Source of the DNA: Ignavibacteriota bacterium
GTDB lineage: Bacteria > Bacteroidota > Ignavibacteria > UBA10030 > UBA6906
DNA: 41,598 bases
Reading direction: 5' to 3'
Assembly (NCBI GenBank): GCA_003157485.1
Contig: PMJQ01000161.1
Coordinates: 191 to 41,788 of the forward strand
Of the stretch, positions 14,895 to 36,846 are shown piece after piece. Position 1 is the stretch's first letter. Each line of letters begins with the position of its first letter. The notes beneath the pieces are model-generated. The model had not been told where the DNA came from. It did not search any database and worked only from the letters and a program-made list of their open reading frames with translations. Position numbers and translations under genes: made by a program.

Positions 14895-17684
14895 TCAGGT
14901 CTCCCGCGCGGAGGAGAGCCCGGCGAGGTTCCGCTGGAGCTTTGCCAGGTTCAACTCGAATGCGGCCAGTTTCTCCTTCTCTCTCGCGACGACCTCCGGA
15001 GGGGCGTTTGCCGTAAATGCCTGGTTCCCGAGTTTCGCCCCGATCCCCTTCAGCATTCCCGTCACCCTGTCCACTTCACGCTGGAGGCGCGCGCGCTCCC
15101 TGTCGAGATCGATGACTCCCTCGAGCGGAACAAAGATCTCCTCTCCCTCGACAACAGCGGTTGCCGAGAAGGGGTGCCGGAGCCCCGGCTCGACAATGGA
15201 GAGGGAGGTGACCCTCGCCAGGCGGGACAAGTACCCTTCGTACCTGCGGACCTCTTCCGCCGGATGCGCGCGGCCCGCCGTCATAAGAAGAGTGATCTCC
15301 CGGGAAGGAGGGATCGACATTTCCCCCCGTATCGTGCGGACCGCCTCGATCACCCCCTGAACGTATGTCATCTGCCGCTCCACAGCCGTGTCGATGAACG
15401 CGGCATCCGGTTCGGGGATCGTTGCACGCATGATCGTCGAGCCCGCGTCCCGCGCCCGTATCGTCTGCCACAGCTCCTCGGTCACAAACGGCATGATGGG
15501 GTGGAGGAGGCGGAGCGCGGCATCATACACGTCGAGCGCGCGCGTCACGACGGATTGCTTTACCGGAAGCGGCTCCCCGCCGTACAGCCGGGACTTGATC
15601 ATCTCGACGTACCAGTCGCAGTAGTCGTGCCAGAAGAAATCGTACAGCTGCCGCGTGACGCGGTTGAATTCGAAGAGGGAGATCGATTCCTTCACATCCC
15701 TGAGCGTCGAATGAAGGCGCGAGAGTATCCACCGGTCGGCGAGATCGGAGTGCGCGGTCGTGAACTGCCCGCTCCGCGGCGCTTCGCCGGTCTGATCGCG
15801 GTTCATGAGAAGAAACCGGCCGGCATTCCAGATCTTGTTCGCCAGGTTCCGCCCGAGCTCGTTCTTTTCTTTCGCATAGATGATATCCTGCCCGACGGGA
15901 GCGAGCGCGAGGATCGTGAAGCGGACGGCATCGGCGCCGTACTCGGCGATAAGATCGAGGGGCTCGGGGGAGTTCCCGAGCGACTTGGACATCTTCCTCC
16001 CGCGCGTGTCCCTCACGATGCTCGTAAAATAGACGTCGCGGAACGGGACGTTCTTCGTCTGGTCGGTGCTTCCCGTGAACGACGGCCCGAATTTCAGTCC
16101 CGCCATGATCATCCGCGCCACCCAGAAGAATATGATCTCGGGGGCGGTGACGAGCGTGTCGGTCGGGTAGAAATACCGGAGGTCTTCCGCCTTCCCGGTG
16201 GAATCCTGCGCCGGCCAGTCGTGGACGGAAAACGGCCAGAGCCATGAGGAGAACCACGTATCAAGAACGTCCTCGTCCTGCCTGAGGTCCGTCCCGCCGC
16301 ACCCCGGGCACGACGCGGGGGTGATTCTGCTGACGATCGGCCTGTCGCAGCGTTCCGTTCTGTTCTCCGCCGCGGTGCAGTACCAGACAGGGATCCGGTG
16401 GCCCCACCAGAGCTGGCGTGAGATGCACCAGTCCCTGATGTTCGTCATCCAGTTTTCGTATACTTTTGTCCACCGGTCGGGGTGGAAGCGGATCGTGCCG
16501 TTCCTGACGGCCTCCAGCGCGGGGGAGGCCAGCGGCTTCATCCGGACGAACCACTGGTCGGAGAGGTACGGTTCGATCACCGTGTCGCAGCGGTAGCAGC
16601 GGCCCACCCTGTTGGCGTGGTCCTCCGTCCGTTCAATGAGACCCAGGGCGGTAAGGTCATCGATGACCTGCTCGCGCGCGTCGTACCTGTCCATCCCCCG
16701 GTACGCGGGGGGGACCTCGTCGTTCAGCCTGGCGGAGATATCGAAGATGGTGATCTGCCCGAGCGCGTGCCGCTGGCCGATGAGAAAGTCGTTCGGGTCG
16801 TGCGCGGGGGTGACCTTTACCGCCCCGGTCCCGAATGCAGGATCCACTCCCTCATCGGCGATGACCGGGATTTCCCTCGCTGTGAGAGGAATGACAGCCG
16901 TCCGGCCGATGAGATGCGCATAACGTTCATCGTCCGGGTGGACCGCGACGGCGGTGTCACCGAACATCGTCTCCGGCCTCGTCGTCGCGACTGTCAGGAA
17001 CCCCGCCTCCTCCCCGGGGAGCGGGTAGCGGATGTACCAGAGTTTGCCCTGCTGCTCGGTGTAGGTGACCTCATCGTCGCTGATCGCCGTGTGATCGTGA
17101 GGACACCAGTTGACGATGTACTTCCCGCGGTAGATGAGCCCGTCCTCGTACAGCCTCACGAACACCTCGCGCACGGCGGCGGAGAGTGTTTCGTCCATCG
17201 TAAACTTCTCACGATCCCAGTCACAGGAAGCACCCAGCGTCCTGAGCTGCCTGACGATGACGCCGCCGTACTGCTCTTTCCACTCCCACACGCGCCGGAC
17301 GAATTCCCCGCGGCCGAGGTCGTGGCGCGTTTTCCCCTCCTTCCGGAGGGACCGCTCGACGACGTGCTGCGTCGCGATGCCGGCGTGGTCCATCCCGGGA
17401 ATCCAGCAGGCTTCGGATCCGGTCATGCGTTTGTAACGGATGAGGACGTCCTGGATCGTGTTGTTGAGTATGTGTCCCATATGGAGGACCCCCGTCACGT
17501 TCGGCGGGGGGATGACGATTGTGTACGGCGGGCGGGTCGCGTTCACCCGGGCGTGAAAAAATCCCGACCGTTCCCAGAGGGCGTACCATTTTGATTCGAC
17601 ATCCCGCGGGGAATAGGCCCTGGAAGGTGCGGGGGGGGTCTGTTCTGTATCGGGCAGAATCGGGGGCTCCGGGAGATGTGACAA
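14895..17684 (-). CDS. valS: Valyl-tRNA synthetase
   Basis: A 929-residue class Ia synthetase charging tRNA-Val. The HIGH-type motif is HMGH in PNVTGVLHMGH (about residue 69) and the KMSKS motif is intact (GRKMSKSLGNS). The editing domain has VATTRPETMFGDTAVAV, and a C-terminal coiled-coil arm (ERARLQREVDRV onward) is typical of ValS. A CPGCGG motif and the nearby CYRC suggest zinc-binding knuckles. The start is uncommon: the only candidate is TTG at 17684, preceded by a pyrimidine-rich tract and no Shine-Dalgarno, 17 bp after the M23 peptidase stop. It ends abutting the glcD-like gene. IleS is excluded by the overall pattern. Confidence 0.96.
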   Translation of the reverse strand: MSHLPEPPILPDTEQTPPAPSRAYSPRDVESKWYALWERSGFFHARVNATRPPYTIVIPPPNVTGVLHMGHILNNTIQDVLIRYKRMTGSEACWIPGMDHAGIATQHVVERSLRKEGKTRHDLGRGEFVRRVWEWKEQYGGVIVRQLRTLGASCDWDREKFTMDETLSAAVREVFVRLYEDGLIYRGKYIVNWCPHDHTAISDDEVTYTEQQGKLWYIRYPLPGEEAGFLTVATTRPETMFGDTAVAVHPDDERYAHLIGRTAVIPLTAREIPVIADEGVDPAFGTGAVKVTPAHDPNDFLIGQRHALGQITIFDISARLNDEVPPAYRGMDRYDAREQVIDDLTALGLIERTEDHANRVGRCYRCDTVIEPYLSDQWFVRMKPLASPALEAVRNGTIRFHPDRWTKVYENWMTNIRDWCISRQLWWGHRIPVWYCTAAENRTERCDRPIVSRITPASCPGCGGTDLRQDEDVLDTWFSSWLWPFSVHDWPAQDSTGKAEDLRYFYPTDTLVTAPEIIFFWVARMIMAGLKFGPSFTGSTDQTKNVPFRDVYFTSIVRDTRGRKMSKSLGNSPEPLDLIAEYGADAVRFTILALAPVGQDIIYAKEKNELGRNLANKIWNAGRFLLMNRDQTGEAPRSGQFTTAHSDLADRWILSRLHSTLRDVKESISLFEFNRVTRQLYDFFWHDYCDWYVEMIKSRLYGGEPLPVKQSVVTRALDVYDAALRLLHPIMPFVTEELWQTIRARDAGSTIMRATIPEPDAAFIDTAVERQMTYVQGVIEAVRTIRGEMSIPPSREITLLMTAGRAHPAEEVRRYEGYLSRLARVTSLSIVEPGLRHPFSATAVVEGEEIFVPLEGVIDLDRERARLQREVDRVTGMLKGIGAKLGNQAFTANAPPEVVAREKEKLAAFELNLAKLQRNLAGLSSARET

Positions 17685-24476: not shown

Positions 24477-24824
24477 TCAGCGCGTCCCGTCCCGCGCGGC
24501 CAGCCTCCCTTCAAGCACGCGCGACGCCTCTTCACTCACCGGCCGCCACCGTGACACATCCCGGTTGAGCGCGCGCACCGCCGCACGGAATTCCTCGCGG
24601 GTCATGGACTCGCTTTTCAGCACGGAATCCGCCGCCGCCGCGGCGGCCCGGGGATCGCGCCCCGCCTCCCTGTTTCTTGCCGCCGTTTCGATCAGTTCGG
24701 CAAGAACGCGCGCGGTCTTCCCACCCGGCGGCACGGCGTGATCACCGCCGGACCGGACGCAGCCCGGAAGCGGAAGGAGGAGAATGAGGAGCACGGGCGC
24801 TGCGGTCAAGAAGGCCCCCCGCAT
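24477..24824 (-). CDS. Small predicted lipoprotein, DUF4296-like
   Basis: A protein of 115 residues from ATG 24824 (120 from the alternative ATG at 24839). A signal sequence ends in the lipobox LPGC, followed by a short linker and an all-helical, Ala/Arg/Glu-rich domain (VLAELIETAARNREAG, then TREEFRAAVRALNRD). The helical pattern resembles the small DUF4296 lipoproteins of Bacteroidota, but I cannot confirm this without a profile search. No function is known. A -35/-10 pair at 24866-24894 would start transcription near 24859. The gene converges on the histidine kinase with 3 bp between stop codons. Confidence 0.6.
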   Translation of the reverse strand: MRGAFLTAAPVLLILLLPLPGCVRSGGDHAVPPGGKTARVLAELIETAARNREAGRDPRAAAAAADSVLKSESMTREEFRAAVRALNRDVSRWRPVSEEASRVLEGRLAARDGTR

Positions 24825-24865
24825 TGAAGCTTCTCGCATGAATAGGGTCCCGTTGTGTACCACGG

Positions 24866-25022: not shown

Positions 25023-25586
25023 ATGCCTTCAACGTCAGATTTCCGCCCCGGTCTTGTCATCAAGTACAACAACGAACTCTGGACCATCATCGAATTTCAG
25101 CATGTGAACCCGGGCAACTGGCGGGCATTCGTGCGTACGAAGCTCAAGAACATCAAGAGCGGAAAAGTCATTGAGAACAGGTTCAGGGCCGGCGAATCGA
25201 TCGACACGATCCGCATCGAGAGGAAGGAATTCCAGTTCCTCTACAGGGACGGGACGGGGTACGTGTTCATGGACAAGACGGATTACGAGCAGATGTCGGT
25301 GCAGGGGGGACAGGTCGGCGAAGGTGCGAAGTTCCTGAAGGACGGGGAGTCGGTGGACATCCTGTTCAACGGGAATGACATCACCGGGATCGAACTCCCG
25401 ATCACCGTCGAGCTGAAGGTGACGGAGACCGTCCCCGGCGTCCGCGGGGACAGCGCCAACTCTGGGACGAAGCCCGCCACCGTGGAGACGGGGGCGACGG
25501 TCAACGTTCCCCTGTTCATCAACGAGGGGGATGTCGTCAAGATCGACACGAGGACGGGTGACTACATCGAACGCGTCAAGGCTTGA
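25023..25586 (+). CDS. efp: Translation elongation factor P
   Basis: A 187-residue EF-P with the usual three beta-barrel domains (KOW-like, then OB-type domains ending with the signature VNVPLFINEGDVVKIDTRTG). It relieves ribosome stalling at polyproline stretches. The start at 25023 gives the family N-terminus (TSDFRPGLVI). The domain I loop that contacts the peptidyl-transferase centre reads PGNWRAF instead of PGKGQAF. The residue equal to the lysylated Lys 34 of E. coli is therefore Asn 32, so the standard lysylation target is absent; Arg 34 is two residues further on. It leads an efp-accB-accC-gcvH run, a common arrangement. The neighbouring accB has a Pro-rich hinge, the kind of sequence EF-P helps translate. 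Confidence 0.95.
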   Translation: MPSTSDFRPGLVIKYNNELWTIIEFQHVNPGNWRAFVRTKLKNIKSGKVIENRFRAGESIDTIRIERKEFQFLYRDGTGYVFMDKTDYEQMSVQGGQVGEGAKFLKDGESVDILFNGNDITGIELPITVELKVTETVPGVRGDSANSGTKPATVETGATVNVPLFINEGDVVKIDTRTGDYIERVKA

Positions 25587-25654: not shown

Positions 25655-26137
25655 ATGGATTTAAACTACGTCAGGAAGCTCGTGAAGCTTCTCTCCGAGA
25701 GCGCGGTGGATGAAATTGAGATCGAAGAGGAAGGGAAGAAGATCCGCGTCGCCAAGAATCCCCATCCCGCGCCCGTCTACCAGGGGCAGTTCGCCTCACC
25801 GTCAGCGCTTTCACCCCCCGCCGGAGTTCCCGCCCCGCAGGCATCCCTCCCGGACTCCGCCCCGCCCCCCGTCCCGGCGGCAAAGCTGCACGAGATCAGG
25901 TCACCCATCGTCGGCACGTTTTACCGCTCGCCCGCGCCCGACGCGGCTCCCTTTGTCCAGGTGGGAAGCGTGATCCGCCCGGGGGCCGTTCTGTGCATCG
26001 TCGAAGCGATGAAGCTCATGAACGAAATCGAAGCGGACGTCGACGGAAAGATCGTGAAGGTCATGGTCGAGAACGGCCAGCCGGTCGAATATGACCAGAC
26101 CCTGTTCCTCATCGAAAAATCTCAGCACCAGGTCTGA
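25655..26137 (+). CDS. accB: Biotin carboxyl carrier protein of acetyl-CoA carboxylase
   Basis: A 160-residue BCCP. The N-terminal helix ([13 protein letters not shown], then [15 protein letters not shown]) is followed by a Pro/Ala-rich hinge (about residues 36-77). The C-terminal biotinyl domain has the biotin-accepting Lys 120 in EAMKLMNEI and the BCCP thumb region ([12 protein letters not shown]). It carries the carboxyl group between biotin carboxylase and the AccAD transferase in fatty-acid synthesis. GGAG seven bases before the ATG is a good ribosome-binding site. It lies 68 bp after efp and 16 bp before accC. The paired order and the thumb mark it as acetyl-CoA, not propionyl-CoA, carboxylase. 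Confidence 0.95.
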
Positions 26138-26153
26138 AATCCAGGAGACAGGG

Positions 26154-27503
26154 GTGTTCAAGAAGGTCCTCATCGCGAACCGGGGGGAAATCGCCCTCCG
26201 CATCATCCGGGTCTGCAAACAGCTCGGGATCAAGACCGTCGCGGTCTATTCCCAGGCGGACCGGGATTCGCTTCATGTCCGGTTCGCGGACGAGGCGGTC
26301 TGTATCGGGCCTCCGCCCGGGCGCGAAAGCTATCTGAAGATCCCCCGGATCATCGCGGCTGCCGAGATCACGGGCGCCGACGCAATCCATCCCGGCTACG
26401 GCTTCCTGGCGGAGAACGCCGGGTTCGCCGAAATCTGCACCACGTCGGGGATCAAATTCATCGGGCCCACCCCGGCGATGATCAGCGCGATGGGGGATAA
26501 GTCCGTGGCGAAGGACACGATGCGGAAAGCCGGCGTTCCTGTCATCCCCGGAAGCGAGAGCGTCGTCGCAAGCGCAGACGAAGCGCGGGAGATCGCCCGG
26601 TCGATTGCATACCCCGTCATCATCAAGGCCTCGGCCGGCGGGGGAGGGCGGGGGATGCGGATCGTGCGGGAAGAGTCCGAGATGGACAACGCCTTCGGGA
26701 CCGCGCGTCACGAGGCGGAGCAGGCGTTCAGCAACCCCGACGTGTACCTTGAGAAATACATCGAGCAGCCACGGCACGTCGAGGTGCAGGTGTTCGGCGA
26801 CGAGCACGGGAACGTGATGCATTTCGGGGAGCGCGACTGCTCCGTCCAGCGCCGGCATCAGAAGCTCATCGAGGAATCGCCTTCGCCCGTCGTCGACGAC
26901 GCTCTCCGCGCGAAGATGGGGGATGCCGCGATCAAGGGGTGCAAGGCGGTCAACTATGTCAACGCGGGGACAGTCGAATTTCTGGTGGACCGGGACCAGA
27001 ATTTCTATTTCATGGAGATGAACACCCGCATTCAGGTCGAACATCCCGTCACCGAGCAGGTGACCGGGCACGACCTTATCAAGCTCCAGCTCCGGATTGC
27101 GGGGGGGGAGCGTCTCCCCAGGAAGAAGATCGTCCAACGCGGGCATGCGATCGAGTGCCGCATCAACGCGGAGGATCCGGCCCACGATTTCCGCCCCTCG
27201 CCGGGAAAGATCACCGATTTCCACATGCCGGGGGGGTTCGGGGTCAGGGTCGATACGCACGCGTATGCGGGGTACACGGTCCCCCCGTACTACGATTCCC
27301 TCACCGCGAAGCTCATCGTGTACGCGCAGACGCGCGAAGGAGCGATCAACAAGATGGCGGGGGCCCTTGAAGAGTTCGTCATCGAAGGGATAAAGACGAC
27401 GATCCCGTTTCACCGGCAGGTGATGCAGAACGAAAAATTCCGCAGCGGCCGGTTCGACACGAGCTTTCTTGACACGTTTGTGTTTGAATCACCGGGTGCG
27501 TAA
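26154..27503 (+). CDS. accC: Biotin carboxylase subunit of acetyl-CoA carboxylase
   Basis: A 449-residue ATP-grasp enzyme that carboxylates the biotin on AccB using bicarbonate and ATP. Visible landmarks are [13 protein letters not shown] at the start, [11 protein letters not shown], the glycine-rich ATP lid [12 protein letters not shown], the [13 protein letters not shown] stretch, [15 protein letters not shown] with catalytic Arg, and the C-terminal ECRINAEDP. The start is taken as GTG at 26154, preceded by AGGAG, which gives the canonical N-terminus and 449 residues as in other AccC. An in-frame ATG at 26091 lies inside accB and is rejected. The accD/accA genes are not in the window. Confidence 0.96.
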
Positions 27504-33562: not shown

Positions 33563-34522
33563 GTGAAAAAGAAAACCGCCCCGCCTCCGGCGGGGAAGGG
33601 GCTGAGGGGGAGAGATTTCATATCCATTGATGATTGCTCCACAAAAGAGATTACGGCTCTGCTCAGGCTCGGGGCCGCGATGAAGGCAAATCCGAAGAAA
33701 TACCGCCGTGCACTGGACGGGAAGATGATGGCGCTGATATTTGAAAAGCCCTCTCTACGCACGCGGACCACGTTCACCGTTGGGATGAGCCAGCTCGGCG
33801 GAGACTCCATACTCCTCACGCCGGCCGATATAAGCCTCGGGAAACGGGAGTCCGTGTACGACGTGGCGAAGAACCTCGAGCGGATGGTGGACGGGATCAT
33901 GATCAGGACGTTCGCTCATGCGATTTGTACGTCGATGGCCCTGAACGCGCGGATCCCGGTAATCAACGGTCTGACGGACCATGAACACCCGTGCCAGGCG
34001 ATGGCCGATTTCCTGACGATACGTGAATGCAGGAAAAACCTCCGGGCGCTCAAGCTCGCATACGTCGGGGACGGCAACAACGTCGCCCATTCGCTCATGC
34101 TGATTGCCGCCAAGCTCGGGGCGACGCTTTTCCTCGGCACACCCGCCGCCCACAAACCGGACCCGGCCGTGATGGAGCGCGCCGGGGCGCTTGCGCGGGA
34201 TGAGGGGGGCGCGATTCACTGGAGCGAAGATCCCGCTGCGGCAGTGAGGGGGGCGGACGTCGTCTATACCGACACGTGGGCGAGCATGGGGCAGGAAGAC
34301 GAAGCGGAAGCACGGCGGGCCGTGTTCACCCCCTACAGAGTGAACCGTGCGCTCTTCGGGCTCGCGAAGAAGGACGCGCTCTTTATGCACTGCCTCCCGG
34401 CGCACCGCGGAGAGGAAGTCACGGACGAGGTCATTGATTCTCCGAATTCGGTCGTCTTCGTGCAGGCGGAGAACCGGCTTCACGTGCAGAAGGCGATCAT
34501 GTTCGAGCTTTTGCGTGACTGA
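33563..34522 (+). CDS. argF: Ornithine carbamoyltransferase
   Basis: A 319-residue carbamoyltransferase interconverting carbamoyl phosphate plus ornithine and citrulline plus phosphate. Carbamoyl-phosphate site: EKPSLRTRTTF (the SxRTRT motif, near residue 62-67). Then VDGIMIRTFAH, NGLTDHEHPCQ (HPCQ motif), the ornithine loop YTDTWASMGQ and the FMHCLPAHRGEEV motif with catalytic Cys. These fit ornithine rather than acetyl- or succinyl-ornithine, putrescine or aspartate as acceptor. The start is GTG at 33563 with GGGAG seven bases upstream. It lies 4 bp before the carbamate kinase gene. Whether it runs in the anabolic or catabolic direction cannot be read from sequence; the arcC neighbour suggests the catabolic or carbamoyl-phosphate-supplying direction. 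Confidence 0.93.
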   Translation: MKKKTAPPPAGKGLRGRDFISIDDCSTKEITALLRLGAAMKANPKKYRRALDGKMMALIFEKPSLRTRTTFTVGMSQLGGDSILLTPADISLGKRESVYDVAKNLERMVDGIMIRTFAHAICTSMALNARIPVINGLTDHEHPCQAMADFLTIRECRKNLRALKLAYVGDGNNVAHSLMLIAAKLGATLFLGTPAAHKPDPAVMERAGALARDEGGAIHWSEDPAAAVRGADVVYTDTWASMGQEDEAEARRAVFTPYRVNRALFGLAKKDALFMHCLPAHRGEEVTDEVIDSPNSVVFVQAENRLHVQKAIMFELLRD

Positions 34523-34526
34523 ACGC

Positions 34527-35465
34527 ATGGGCGGGCTCGTCCTCATAGCGGTGGGAGGGAATGCCCTCATCCGGGCAGGTCAGAAAGGGACCGCGCAGGA
34601 ACAGTTCCAGAACGCCGTCGACACGGCCGGAGTAGTCGTCAGGCTCATCGACGCCGGGTACCGGGTCGTTCTCACGCACGGCAACGGCCCGCAGGTCGGC
34701 GCCGCGCTCGTCCGTTCCGAACTCGCGGCCGCTCACGCATACAGAATGCCCCTGGATTGCTGCGTCGCATCCACACAGGGAGAGATCGGGTACGTCCTCC
34801 AGTATGCGCTCTGGCAGGCGCTCCAGGCGGAGGGCTTGAGGACGCCGGTCGTCTCACTTGTCACGCAGGTTCTTGTTGACAAGAACGATCCCGCGTTTGC
34901 GCGCCCCACCAAGCCGATCGGCCCGTTTTACACGAAGGACGAGGCGAACCGCTACCGCGATCTGTTCAACTGGGACATCGTGGAAGACTCCTCCCGGGGT
35001 TTCCGGCGGGTCGTCGCCTCCCCCGAGCCGCGCGGGATCGTGGAGCTTGAAGCGATCCGTGCGTGCGTCGACAGGGGACTCGTCGTGATCGCCGGCGGGG
35101 GCGGGGGCGTGCCGGTCTTCAACGATCACGACATCACGAAGGGGGTGGAAGCGGTCATCGACAAGGATCACACCTCCGCGATACTCGCGTCGCAGCTGGG
35201 GGCCGATTTCTTCGCCATCGACACGGACGAAGAGATGGTCTGCCTCGACTACCGGAGGCCGTCGCAGAGAAAACTCCCCCTCCTGACGGTGGAGGAGTGC
35301 CGCCGGTACATTGCGGAAGGGCAGTTCCCTGAGGGGAGCATGGGGCCAAAGATCAGGGCAGCGATGGTCTTCCTGGGCAGGGGGGGCGGGGAAGCCGTCA
35401 TCACAGATTCGGAGCACCTGATGGACGCCGTCGCGGGACGCGGCGGAACGCATATCATCCGTTAA
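34527..35465 (+). CDS. arcC: Carbamate kinase
   Basis: A 312-residue amino-acid-kinase-fold enzyme: carbamoyl phosphate plus ADP gives ATP plus carbamate. The N-terminus has VLIAVGGNALI, then VLTHGNGPQVG and TQGEIGYVLQ; late motifs include KDHTSAILASQLGADFF and the PEGSMGPKIRAAM end, all typical of ArcC. The ATG at 34527 lies 4 bp after the argF stop; the frame extends further upstream, but that part overlaps argF. No clear Shine-Dalgarno precedes it, so coupling to argF is likely. No arginine deiminase gene (arcA) or transporter is in the cluster, so citrulline or carbamoyl phosphate must come from elsewhere. The next gene follows after 28 bp. Confidence 0.94.
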   Translation: MGGLVLIAVGGNALIRAGQKGTAQEQFQNAVDTAGVVVRLIDAGYRVVLTHGNGPQVGAALVRSELAAAHAYRMPLDCCVASTQGEIGYVLQYALWQALQAEGLRTPVVSLVTQVLVDKNDPAFARPTKPIGPFYTKDEANRYRDLFNWDIVEDSSRGFRRVVASPEPRGIVELEAIRACVDRGLVVIAGGGGGVPVFNDHDITKGVEAVIDKDHTSAILASQLGADFFAIDTDEEMVCLDYRRPSQRKLPLLTVEECRRYIAEGQFPEGSMGPKIRAAMVFLGRGGGEAVITDSEHLMDAVAGRGGTHIIR

Positions 35466-35493: not shown

Positions 35494-36846
35494 ATGCCGA
35501 AAACGCGTGTACTGATTATGGGAGCGGCGGGGAGAGACTTTCACAATTTCAACACCGTCTACCGTGGAAACCGCGCCGTCGAAGTCGTCGCGTTCACCGC
35601 GACGCAGATTCCGAACATCGCCGGGAGGAAGTACCCTGCGAAGCTTGCCGGTCCCGGGTACCCCCGGGGAATCCGCATCTATCCCGAATCCGAACTCCCC
35701 GGGCTCATCCGGAAGCTCCGCGTGGATCAGGTCGTCTTCTCGTATTCCGACGTGTCAAACAACTACGTGATGGACAGGGCGTCGATGGTGATGGCCCTGG
35801 GTGCGGATTTCACCGTCCTCGGCGGGGAGCATACGATGATTCCCTCGAAAGTGCCCGTAATCTCGGTCGTCGCCGTCCGCACGGGATCGGGGAAGAGCCA
35901 GACCTCGCGCAGGGTGTGCGCCTACCTGCGGAGCCGCGGGAAGCGCGTCGTTGCGGTGCGGCACCCCATGCCGTACGGCGATCTCGTGAAGCAGCGGGTC
36001 CAGCGCTACGGGACGCTCGCCGATCTTGTGAAGTACAAATGCACTGTCGAGGAGATGGAGGAATACGAGCCCCACATCGTGGAGGGGACGATCATCTATG
36101 CGGGGGTGGACTACGAGGCGATACTGCGCGAGGCGGAGAAAGAAGCCGACGTGATCGTGTGGGACGGCGGAAACAACGACATGTCGTTTTACAAATCGGA
36201 CCTCACGATCACCGTCGTGGACCCACACCGGCCGGGACACGAATTGACGTACTATCCGGGACAGACGAACGTCCGGCTTGCCGACGTCATCGTCGTGAAC
36301 AAGGTGGATTCCGCCGCGCCGGAGAACGTCGCCGCGGTCATTGCGAACTCGCTTGCGATAAACCCGGGAGCGACGATCATCGAAGCGAATTCGAAGATCA
36401 CCGTCGAAGACGAATCGCTCCTGAGGGGGAAAGACGTCCTCGTCGTCGAGGACGGCCCGACGCTGACACACGGCGAAATGCAGTTCGGCGCGGGGACGAT
36501 CGCCGCAAAAATGTTCGGCGCGCGCTCGATCATCGATCCCCGTCCGTATGCAACCGGTTCGATCGCCGGGACATACGCAAAATACCCCCGGACCGGCAGG
36601 GTCCTCCCCGCGATGGGATACGGGGAGGAACAGATCGCCGACCTGGAGGAGACGATAAACAAGGTCCCCTGCGACACGGTGGTGATCGGCACGCCGATAG
36701 ACCTGAGGCGCGTCCTGAAGATCAACAAACCGTCCGTACGCGTCAGTTACACGCTTCAGGAGAGGACGATGCCCGACATCCCGGCCGTCCTCGACGATTT
36801 CCTCAAAGCGCCCCGCCGGCGGACGGGGAAAGGCGGGGGACGGTAA
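35494..36846 (+). CDS. COG2403 P-loop protein (cyclic 2,3-diphosphoglycerate synthetase-like)
   Basis: A 450-residue protein of the family usually annotated as cyclic 2,3-diphosphoglycerate synthetase or simply GTPase. Residues 1-120 form a Rossmann-like domain (RVLIMGAAGRDFHNFN). A P-loop follows at 127-135 (VRTGSGKS), then HPMPYGDL, a Walker-B-like VIVWDGGNND and VVNKVD, which resembles the NKxD base-recognition motif of GTPases. The end has IGTPIDLRRVLKINKP. In hyperthermophilic archaea the enzyme makes an osmolyte, but a bacterial role is not established as far as I know. It is placed directly after argF and arcC, which handle carbamoyl phosphate. A link to that metabolite is inference. 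AAGGAG lies upstream of the ATG. Confidence 0.8.
   Translation: MPKTRVLIMGAAGRDFHNFNTVYRGNRAVEVVAFTATQIPNIAGRKYPAKLAGPGYPRGIRIYPESELPGLIRKLRVDQVVFSYSDVSNNYVMDRASMVMALGADFTVLGGEHTMIPSKVPVISVVAVRTGSGKSQTSRRVCAYLRSRGKRVVAVRHPMPYGDLVKQRVQRYGTLADLVKYKCTVEEMEEYEPHIVEGTIIYAGVDYEAILREAEKEADVIVWDGGNNDMSFYKSDLTITVVDPHRPGHELTYYPGQTNVRLADVIVVNKVDSAAPENVAAVIANSLAINPGATIIEANSKITVEDESLLRGKDVLVVEDGPTLTHGEMQFGAGTIAAKMFGARSIIDPRPYATGSIAGTYAKYPRTGRVLPAMGYGEEQIADLEETINKVPCDTVVIGTPIDLRRVLKINKPSVRVSYTLQERTMPDIPAVLDDFLKAPRRRTGKGGGR

Follow-up and report, generated by a model that had tools for sequence, protein, structure and literature searches.

An asparagine-tipped elongation factor P from the Ignavibacteria that may work without post-translational modification

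The elongation factor P (EF-P) encoded in the 41,598-nucleotide stretch of DNA from an Ignavibacteriota bacterium analyzed here (the window) has an Asn at the tip of its loop, and its sequence suggests that it is probably an ordinary working factor that does without post-translational modification. EF-P is widespread in bacteria and most of the studied cases need an unusual modification; most bacterial EF-Ps have a Lys or an Arg at the tip, which is often chemically modified. The window EF-P belongs to an Asn class that has been in print since 2010 and accounts for about 2% of EF-Ps. The Asn tip itself was therefore known already, and what our survey adds is its linkage to the residues at +1 and +2 and a proposed mechanism.

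The efp gene extends over positions 25023-25586 of the forward strand, from the ATG at 25023 to the TGA at 25584-25586, and encodes a protein of 187 aa. Its product scored 250.6 bits against the NCBIfam EF-P model TIGR00038 (cut-off 185.8), which places it within EF-P, and its EFP_N domain (PF08207) scored 91.7 bits (cut-off 23); no other EFP_N match occurs in the genome, an assembly of 4.1 Mb in 239 contigs that is 91% complete and whose contig C99 contains the window. Bases 25110-25130, CCGGGCAACTGGCGGGCATTC, are read in the EF-P frame as P30 G31 N32 W33 R34 A35 F36. In an AlphaFold2 model of the protein (mean pLDDT 86.3), strands 18-28 and 36-43 enclose a seven-residue beta3-beta4 loop, N29-P30-G31-N32-W33-R34-A35 (25107-25127, forward strand), with N32 at its center. 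The model has the three-domain EF-P fold, as judged by comparison with the EF-P of C. glutamicum (Z 21.1, rmsd 3.6, 185 residues), and it also matched the ribosome-bound EF-P 6enj (Z 16.5, rmsd 3.6, 184 residues). In the ungapped alignments listed (5 of 12), N32 lies opposite the Lys or Arg tip of solved EF-Ps. The original prediction, according to which the residue at the tip is Asn32 (codon AAC, 25116-25118, forward strand) in a PGNWRAF loop of the same length as that of other EF-Ps, is thus borne out by the reading frame, by the alignments to solved EF-Ps and by the modelled loop, which contains no Lys.

The Asn loop is not the quirk of a single genome. Aligning the EF-Ps of relatives had been proposed as a check on the prediction, and it returned the same PGNWRAF in all 17 of the closest named relatives (L002-L018, 65-93% identical), the nearest of which are metagenome bins labelled mostly as Ignavibacteriae or Bacteroidetes. 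Among 81 loci, comprising that of the window and its best 80 named relatives, 22 had an Asn tip, in PGNWRAF (19) or PGNLRAF (3). Of 395 genomes sampled across the phylum, 164, the genome of the window among them, contain DNA matching the pattern HxxPGNxRAF, a count that may include a few chance matches (the reversed pattern matched 3 rows) and that misses the forms PGNLRAM, PGNKRGF and PGNLHAF; the match in genome G194 was taken as chance, as no EF-P match was present there. Among the 164 are the other 3 genomes of its family and all 13 of its order. Within a 148-genome sample, 106 genomes yielded the 110 EF-P genes that were read; the tip was Lys in 71, Asn in 35 and Arg in 4 (Asn in 36 of 111 with the window gene added), and 28 of the 110, all with a Lys tip, had PGKGP. 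The true Asn share of this sample is probably higher than the one read, because 26 of the 41 genomes that were omitted by hand belong to family f26, in which all four genes read have an Asn tip. The dominant loop contexts were HVNPGNWRAFVR and HRTPGNLRAFYQ; HVTPGNLRAFYR and HRNPGNWRAFVV are among the intermediate ones.

The tip, +1 and +2 positions vary together. We compared them in a non-redundant set of 134 EF-Ps (<93% identity), in which the tip is Asn in 67 rows, Lys in 62 and Arg in 5. Without exception, the 67 Asn-tip rows carry Pro at -2 and Gly at -1; at +1 they have Leu (44), Trp (21) or Lys (2) and never Gly, and at +2 they have Arg in 66 cases and His in one. Lys-tip rows have Gly at +1 in 62 of 62 cases and a varied +2 residue (Gly 35, Ala 14, Pro 8, Asn 2, Ser 2, Arg 1). 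Trp is the rarer of the two bulky choices at +1 and, judging from these sequences, Trp33 appears to be optional in Asn-type loops and Arg34 (codon 25122-25124, forward strand) nearly obligatory. Conservation in the Asn-tip rows reaches 97-100% at columns 30-32 and 34-36, against a mean of 64% over all columns, and positions 27-38 are free of Lys in 65 of the 67. As for the suggestion in the original prediction that Trp and Arg side chains fill the role of the modified residue, its Arg half agrees with the conservation at +2, while its Trp half does not hold, given Leu in 44 and Lys in 2 of the 67 rows. The co-change of tip and +2 was not statistically significant, as only 4 independent pairs were available on well-supported branches (median sign test p 0.125); in these pairs +2 differed in the same direction in 3.6 cases on average, with no difference in 0.4. 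Since independent switches of tip and +2 are few, their association may largely reflect shared ancestry.

On an EF-P tree built without the loop columns, a single clade of all Asn tips was rejected (67 Asn rows held together, p-AU 1.5e-5, quick tree), although this test is limited by many weak inner branches, some long-branched rows and trait-defined groups that were chosen after the first tree, against which the test itself cautions. Located within an Asn group were L024 (PGKGRAS), L234 (PGKGGAF) and Kapaibacterium (MGRGSGF). The Arg-tip loop MGRGSGF is found in three Kapaibacterium genomes (L053, L054 and L056); the tree, which includes only L053 of these, places it amid Asn-type EF-Ps. No EarP match was obtained in the three, with a model that matched none of the control genomes either, and their Arg tip is possibly of an unmodified type or served by another modifier. 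Two sequences of family f21 (L239 and L240), with HHTPGNLRAM, lie at the end of a very long branch, with 2.1 changes per column, and represent a fast-evolving Asn type.

Four of the five sampled genomes of family f22 (G080, G099, G122 and G138, but not G002) encode two EF-Ps, one with PGNLRAF and one with PGKGGAF, and in G080 and G138 the match starts of the two are about 0.7 kb apart (L244, G080:C2:159000-161600; L245, G138:C1:239700-242300). The f22 Lys copies join the f22 Asn copies with support of 100/99, with further Asn types adjoining at 100/99, while branching inside f22 is weak (82/66). Placing the f22 Lys copies with other Lys-tip EF-Ps was rejected (p-AU 3.1e-5, for 42 hand-picked rows and a group named after the first tree). 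Because the Lys copies nest among Asn types, the direction of change would be from Asn-Leu-Arg to Lys-Gly-Gly, and these sequences imply that an Asn-type gene was duplicated in f22 and that one copy became PGKGGAF, the three positions changing together. Coupling of the loop with differences at residues 51 and 53 between the Asn and Lys sets was rejected; those differences look like history, because the derived f22 Lys copies keep Glu51 and Arg53. Genomes with both an Asn-type and a Lys-type copy offer a natural side-by-side comparison of the two loop chemistries.

The distribution of modification enzymes speaks against the known lysine pathways as an explanation of the Asn-type loop. None of 80 genomes (36 with an Asn tip, 40 with Lys tips only and 4 with an Arg tip) passed the EpmA cut-off, which was passed by 2 of 14 controls. 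All 80 contain matches to the EpmA model below the cut-off, and the candidate in the genome of the window was rejected as a full 507-aa lysyl-tRNA synthetase. The finding named beforehand as one that would overturn the prediction, epmA in relatives with the Asn loop, did not materialize over the cut-off in any of the 36 Asn-tip genomes. In one genome, a 799-aa open frame (L282, G013:C34:2500-5200) has two stretches that match the EpmA model with 112 and 109 bits, under the cut-off. The EpmB cut-off was passed by none of 34 genomes (23 with an Asn tip) and by 1 of 14 controls. The EpmB candidate of the window's genome was rejected as a 378-aa KamA-family radical SAM protein (L280, 340-1476, G000:C222), which matches lysine 2,3-aminomutase best (469.5 bits), falls below every equivalog cut-off listed and passes only the KamA-family subfamily model. 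EarP was matched in 0 of 80 and 0 of 6 genomes, with a model that also matched no control genome and so had no positive control. The sampled phylum seems to be without beta-lysylation altogether. EpmA is equally missing from the 40 genomes that have Lys tips but no Asn copy, and its absence is therefore no marker of the Asn type. The original prediction had left a choice between an unmodified EF-P and one modified in a new way; these counts and the Lys-free loops speak against the known lysine pathways, while a new modification of Arg34 or Asn32 is compatible with the sequence.

A dedicated modification gene beside efp was rejected as well, as no Asn-specific neighbor crosses lineages among 50 Asn-type loci, each taken with roughly 1-2 kb of flanking sequence and analyzed as crude single-linkage clusters that mix overlapping frames and with identities assigned by eye. 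The neighbors that are absent from all Lys-type loci belong to one lineage each (L096-L111; L002-L014 with L135; L086-L095), and the neighbor clusters that do cross lineages also contain 47-82 of the 82 Lys-type loci. Upstream of efp in the window lies a putative small lipoprotein gene (24477-24863, reverse strand) without NCBIfam matches, and BLAST placed related ORFs next to efp in 9 of 132 loci, every one of the Asn type and from the lineage of the window. Elsewhere in the window, a 450-aa ORF (35494-36843, forward strand), whose only NCBIfam match is a weak one to MobA/MobB (20.9 bits), lies beside two genes, one OTC-like by eye (33563-34522) and one for carbamate kinase (34530-35462); by eye we take it to resemble a cyclic 2,3-diphosphoglycerate synthetase-like GTPase.

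Several features of the window and its genome bear on the demand for EF-P. Runs of PPP occur in ValS, AccB and AccC, and five more lie in genes that are less certain or close to starts that are uncertain. The valyl-tRNA synthetase gene valS (14895-17684, reverse strand; NF004349, 1200.7 bits, cut-off 704) encodes PPP at residue 59, within IPPPNVT, which is likely to be an EF-P client motif. Downstream of efp are accB, for the biotin carboxyl carrier protein (25655-26137, forward strand; TIGR00531, 167.9 bits, cut-off 115.2), and accC, for biotin carboxylase (26154-27503, forward strand, start codon uncertain; TIGR00514, 735.8 bits, cut-off 626.5, scanned from 26163). For tRNA-Pro, the element that EF-P recognizes was described as the size of the D-loop together with a stable stem (PMC4890201, available in part). 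The tRNA-Pro(TGG) has a 9-nt D-loop and a 4-bp GCTC/GAGC stem in which the 12/23 pair is U-A. In E. coli this pair is G-C, and weakened D-stem pairs gave weaker enhancement, although U12/A23, which is present in several species, was expected to be tolerable (PMC4890201). Tyr181 and Arg184 of the window EF-P are invariant and would correspond to Tyr183 and Arg186 of the E. coli protein, which contact tRNA and 16S rRNA (PMC11611912).

How might such a loop work? Within the KOW domain, Pro-Gly-Asn-(Leu/Trp)-Arg-Ala-Phe would stand in for Pro-Gly-Lys-Gly-X-Ala-Phe, and the Asn-(Leu/Trp)-Arg loop would do the work of the modified Lys. Arg34 would replace the long modified side chain and is the likely contact residue, assisted by residue 33, which is bulky where Lys-type loops have Gly. 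This account of Arg34 draws on the precedent of EfpL, which acts with an unmodified Arg at its tip; a docked model led to the proposal that this Arg contacts the CCA end (PMC11611912, available in part). We infer the unmodified state of Asn-type EF-Ps, their relief of proline stalls, the contact through Arg34 and the parts assigned to residues 32 and 33. It is a more tentative proposal, on balance somewhat doubtful, that Asn-(Leu/Trp)-Arg constitutes a separate, self-sufficient loop chemistry in which the encoded +2 Arg reaches the peptidyl-tRNA and the three positions form a module swapped as a unit with Lys-Gly-X. In the E. coli loop, which we take to be PGKGQAF, a K34N mutant would presumably have kept Gly35 and Gln36. 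That K34N alone left E. coli EF-P inactive (PMC6544042, available in part) indicates that Asn is insufficient in a Lys-type loop, and it is the strongest fact against our reading; since the mutant lacked the matching +1 and +2 residues, a swap of the loop is predicted to work.

The same mutant fits a reading that we consider unlikely, namely that Asn-type EF-Ps have lost most of their polyproline rescue and serve another or weaker role, with ABC-F ATPases or YebC-type factors taking the load. The K32A EF-P of B. subtilis points the same way, as it supports growth without yfmR yet fails on polyproline (PMC11381351, available in part). However, the loop is conserved above the level of the whole protein, the tRNA-Pro keeps its 9-nt D-loop, valS and other genes contain PPP runs, and the genome, at 91% completeness, has no further EFP_N match. 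It is also fairly unlikely that Arg34 or Asn32 carries a novel modification, introduced by an enzyme that is encoded elsewhere in the genome and has no relation to EpmA, to EarP or to the Bacillus pathway. The near-invariant Arg at +2 would fit an acceptor as much as a contact residue. The Asn-only neighbors of efp are lineage-bound in the flanks surveyed, which argues against this, although an enzyme could lie elsewhere; we know of no precedent for modification at +2 of the EF-P loop. A misreading, whether through sequencing error or through a shifted alignment with the true tip elsewhere, is extremely improbable given the 17 relatives with the same loop, the alignments to the listed solved EF-Ps without gaps around it and its seven-residue length in the model.

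If the Asn-(Leu/Trp)-Arg loop is self-sufficient as proposed, it would be a further way of working beside modified Lys or Arg, PGKGP loops and the long EfpL loop, and f22 cells would hold both chemistries. As a further escape from modification, the Asn type would show what a modified side chain must supply, and hosts that lack modification enzymes might translate proline-rich proteins better with the aid of so compact a loop.

An Asn tip was reported in 2010 in 2.2% of the EF-Ps of organisms without YjeA/YjeK (PMC2821294) and in 2019 in 2.23% of 1166 EF-Ps, with Pro at -2 in all of these Asn-tip cases (PMC6544042), and is also mentioned in PMC11611912. The window EF-P matches this class in its Asn, which aligns with Lys34 of E. 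coli, and in its Pro at -2, and does not differ from it as described in the available parts of the first two articles, whose main text there contains no taxonomy of the class, no linkage to +1 or +2 and no function beyond the inactive K34N. In the literature searched, which included few subscription papers, no article was found that studies the function of an Asn-type EF-P or gives activity or mass data for one, and the strings PGNLRAF and PGNWRAF were absent from the main texts.

Compared with the Lys-type EF-P of E. coli, which works with EpmA and EpmB, the window protein shares the fold, the seven-residue loop, PG before the tip and AF after it, but it has Asn rather than Lys at the tip, a residue 33 that is not Gly and a genome without EpmA or EpmB over the cut-off. 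It differs from the 5-aminopentanolylated EF-P of the Bacillus type (GsaB, YnbB, YmfI) in lacking the acceptor Lys, having Asn32 in a Lys-free loop. Pinheiro in 2020 and Tomasiunaite in 2024 reportedly described a PGKGP-type EF-P that works unmodified, with a Lys tip and Pro at +2; PG before the tip is shared, but with its Asn tip and Arg at +2 the window EF-P falls outside that type. With the Arg-type EF-P of Pseudomonas and Neisseria, which works with EarP, it shares the fold and an Arg within the loop, although this Arg is at +2 rather than at the tip and Pro30 occupies the -2 position, where Pro is nearly always missing in the Arg type (PMC6544042). A loop that resembles that of EfpL, KTARAAAK, occurs in family f25 (G007, G017, G091, G115; L214-L217, L258, L261), whose genomes have it in their single EFP_N match and not in an EfpL next to an EF-P. 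EfpL/YeiP itself, as described in the available part of PMC11611912, has an Arg at the tip of a loop that is longer by two residues, whereas the loop of the window EF-P has seven residues and an Asn tip, and with 126.3 bits against the EfpL model TIGR02178 (cut-off 264.05) it lies outside that family.
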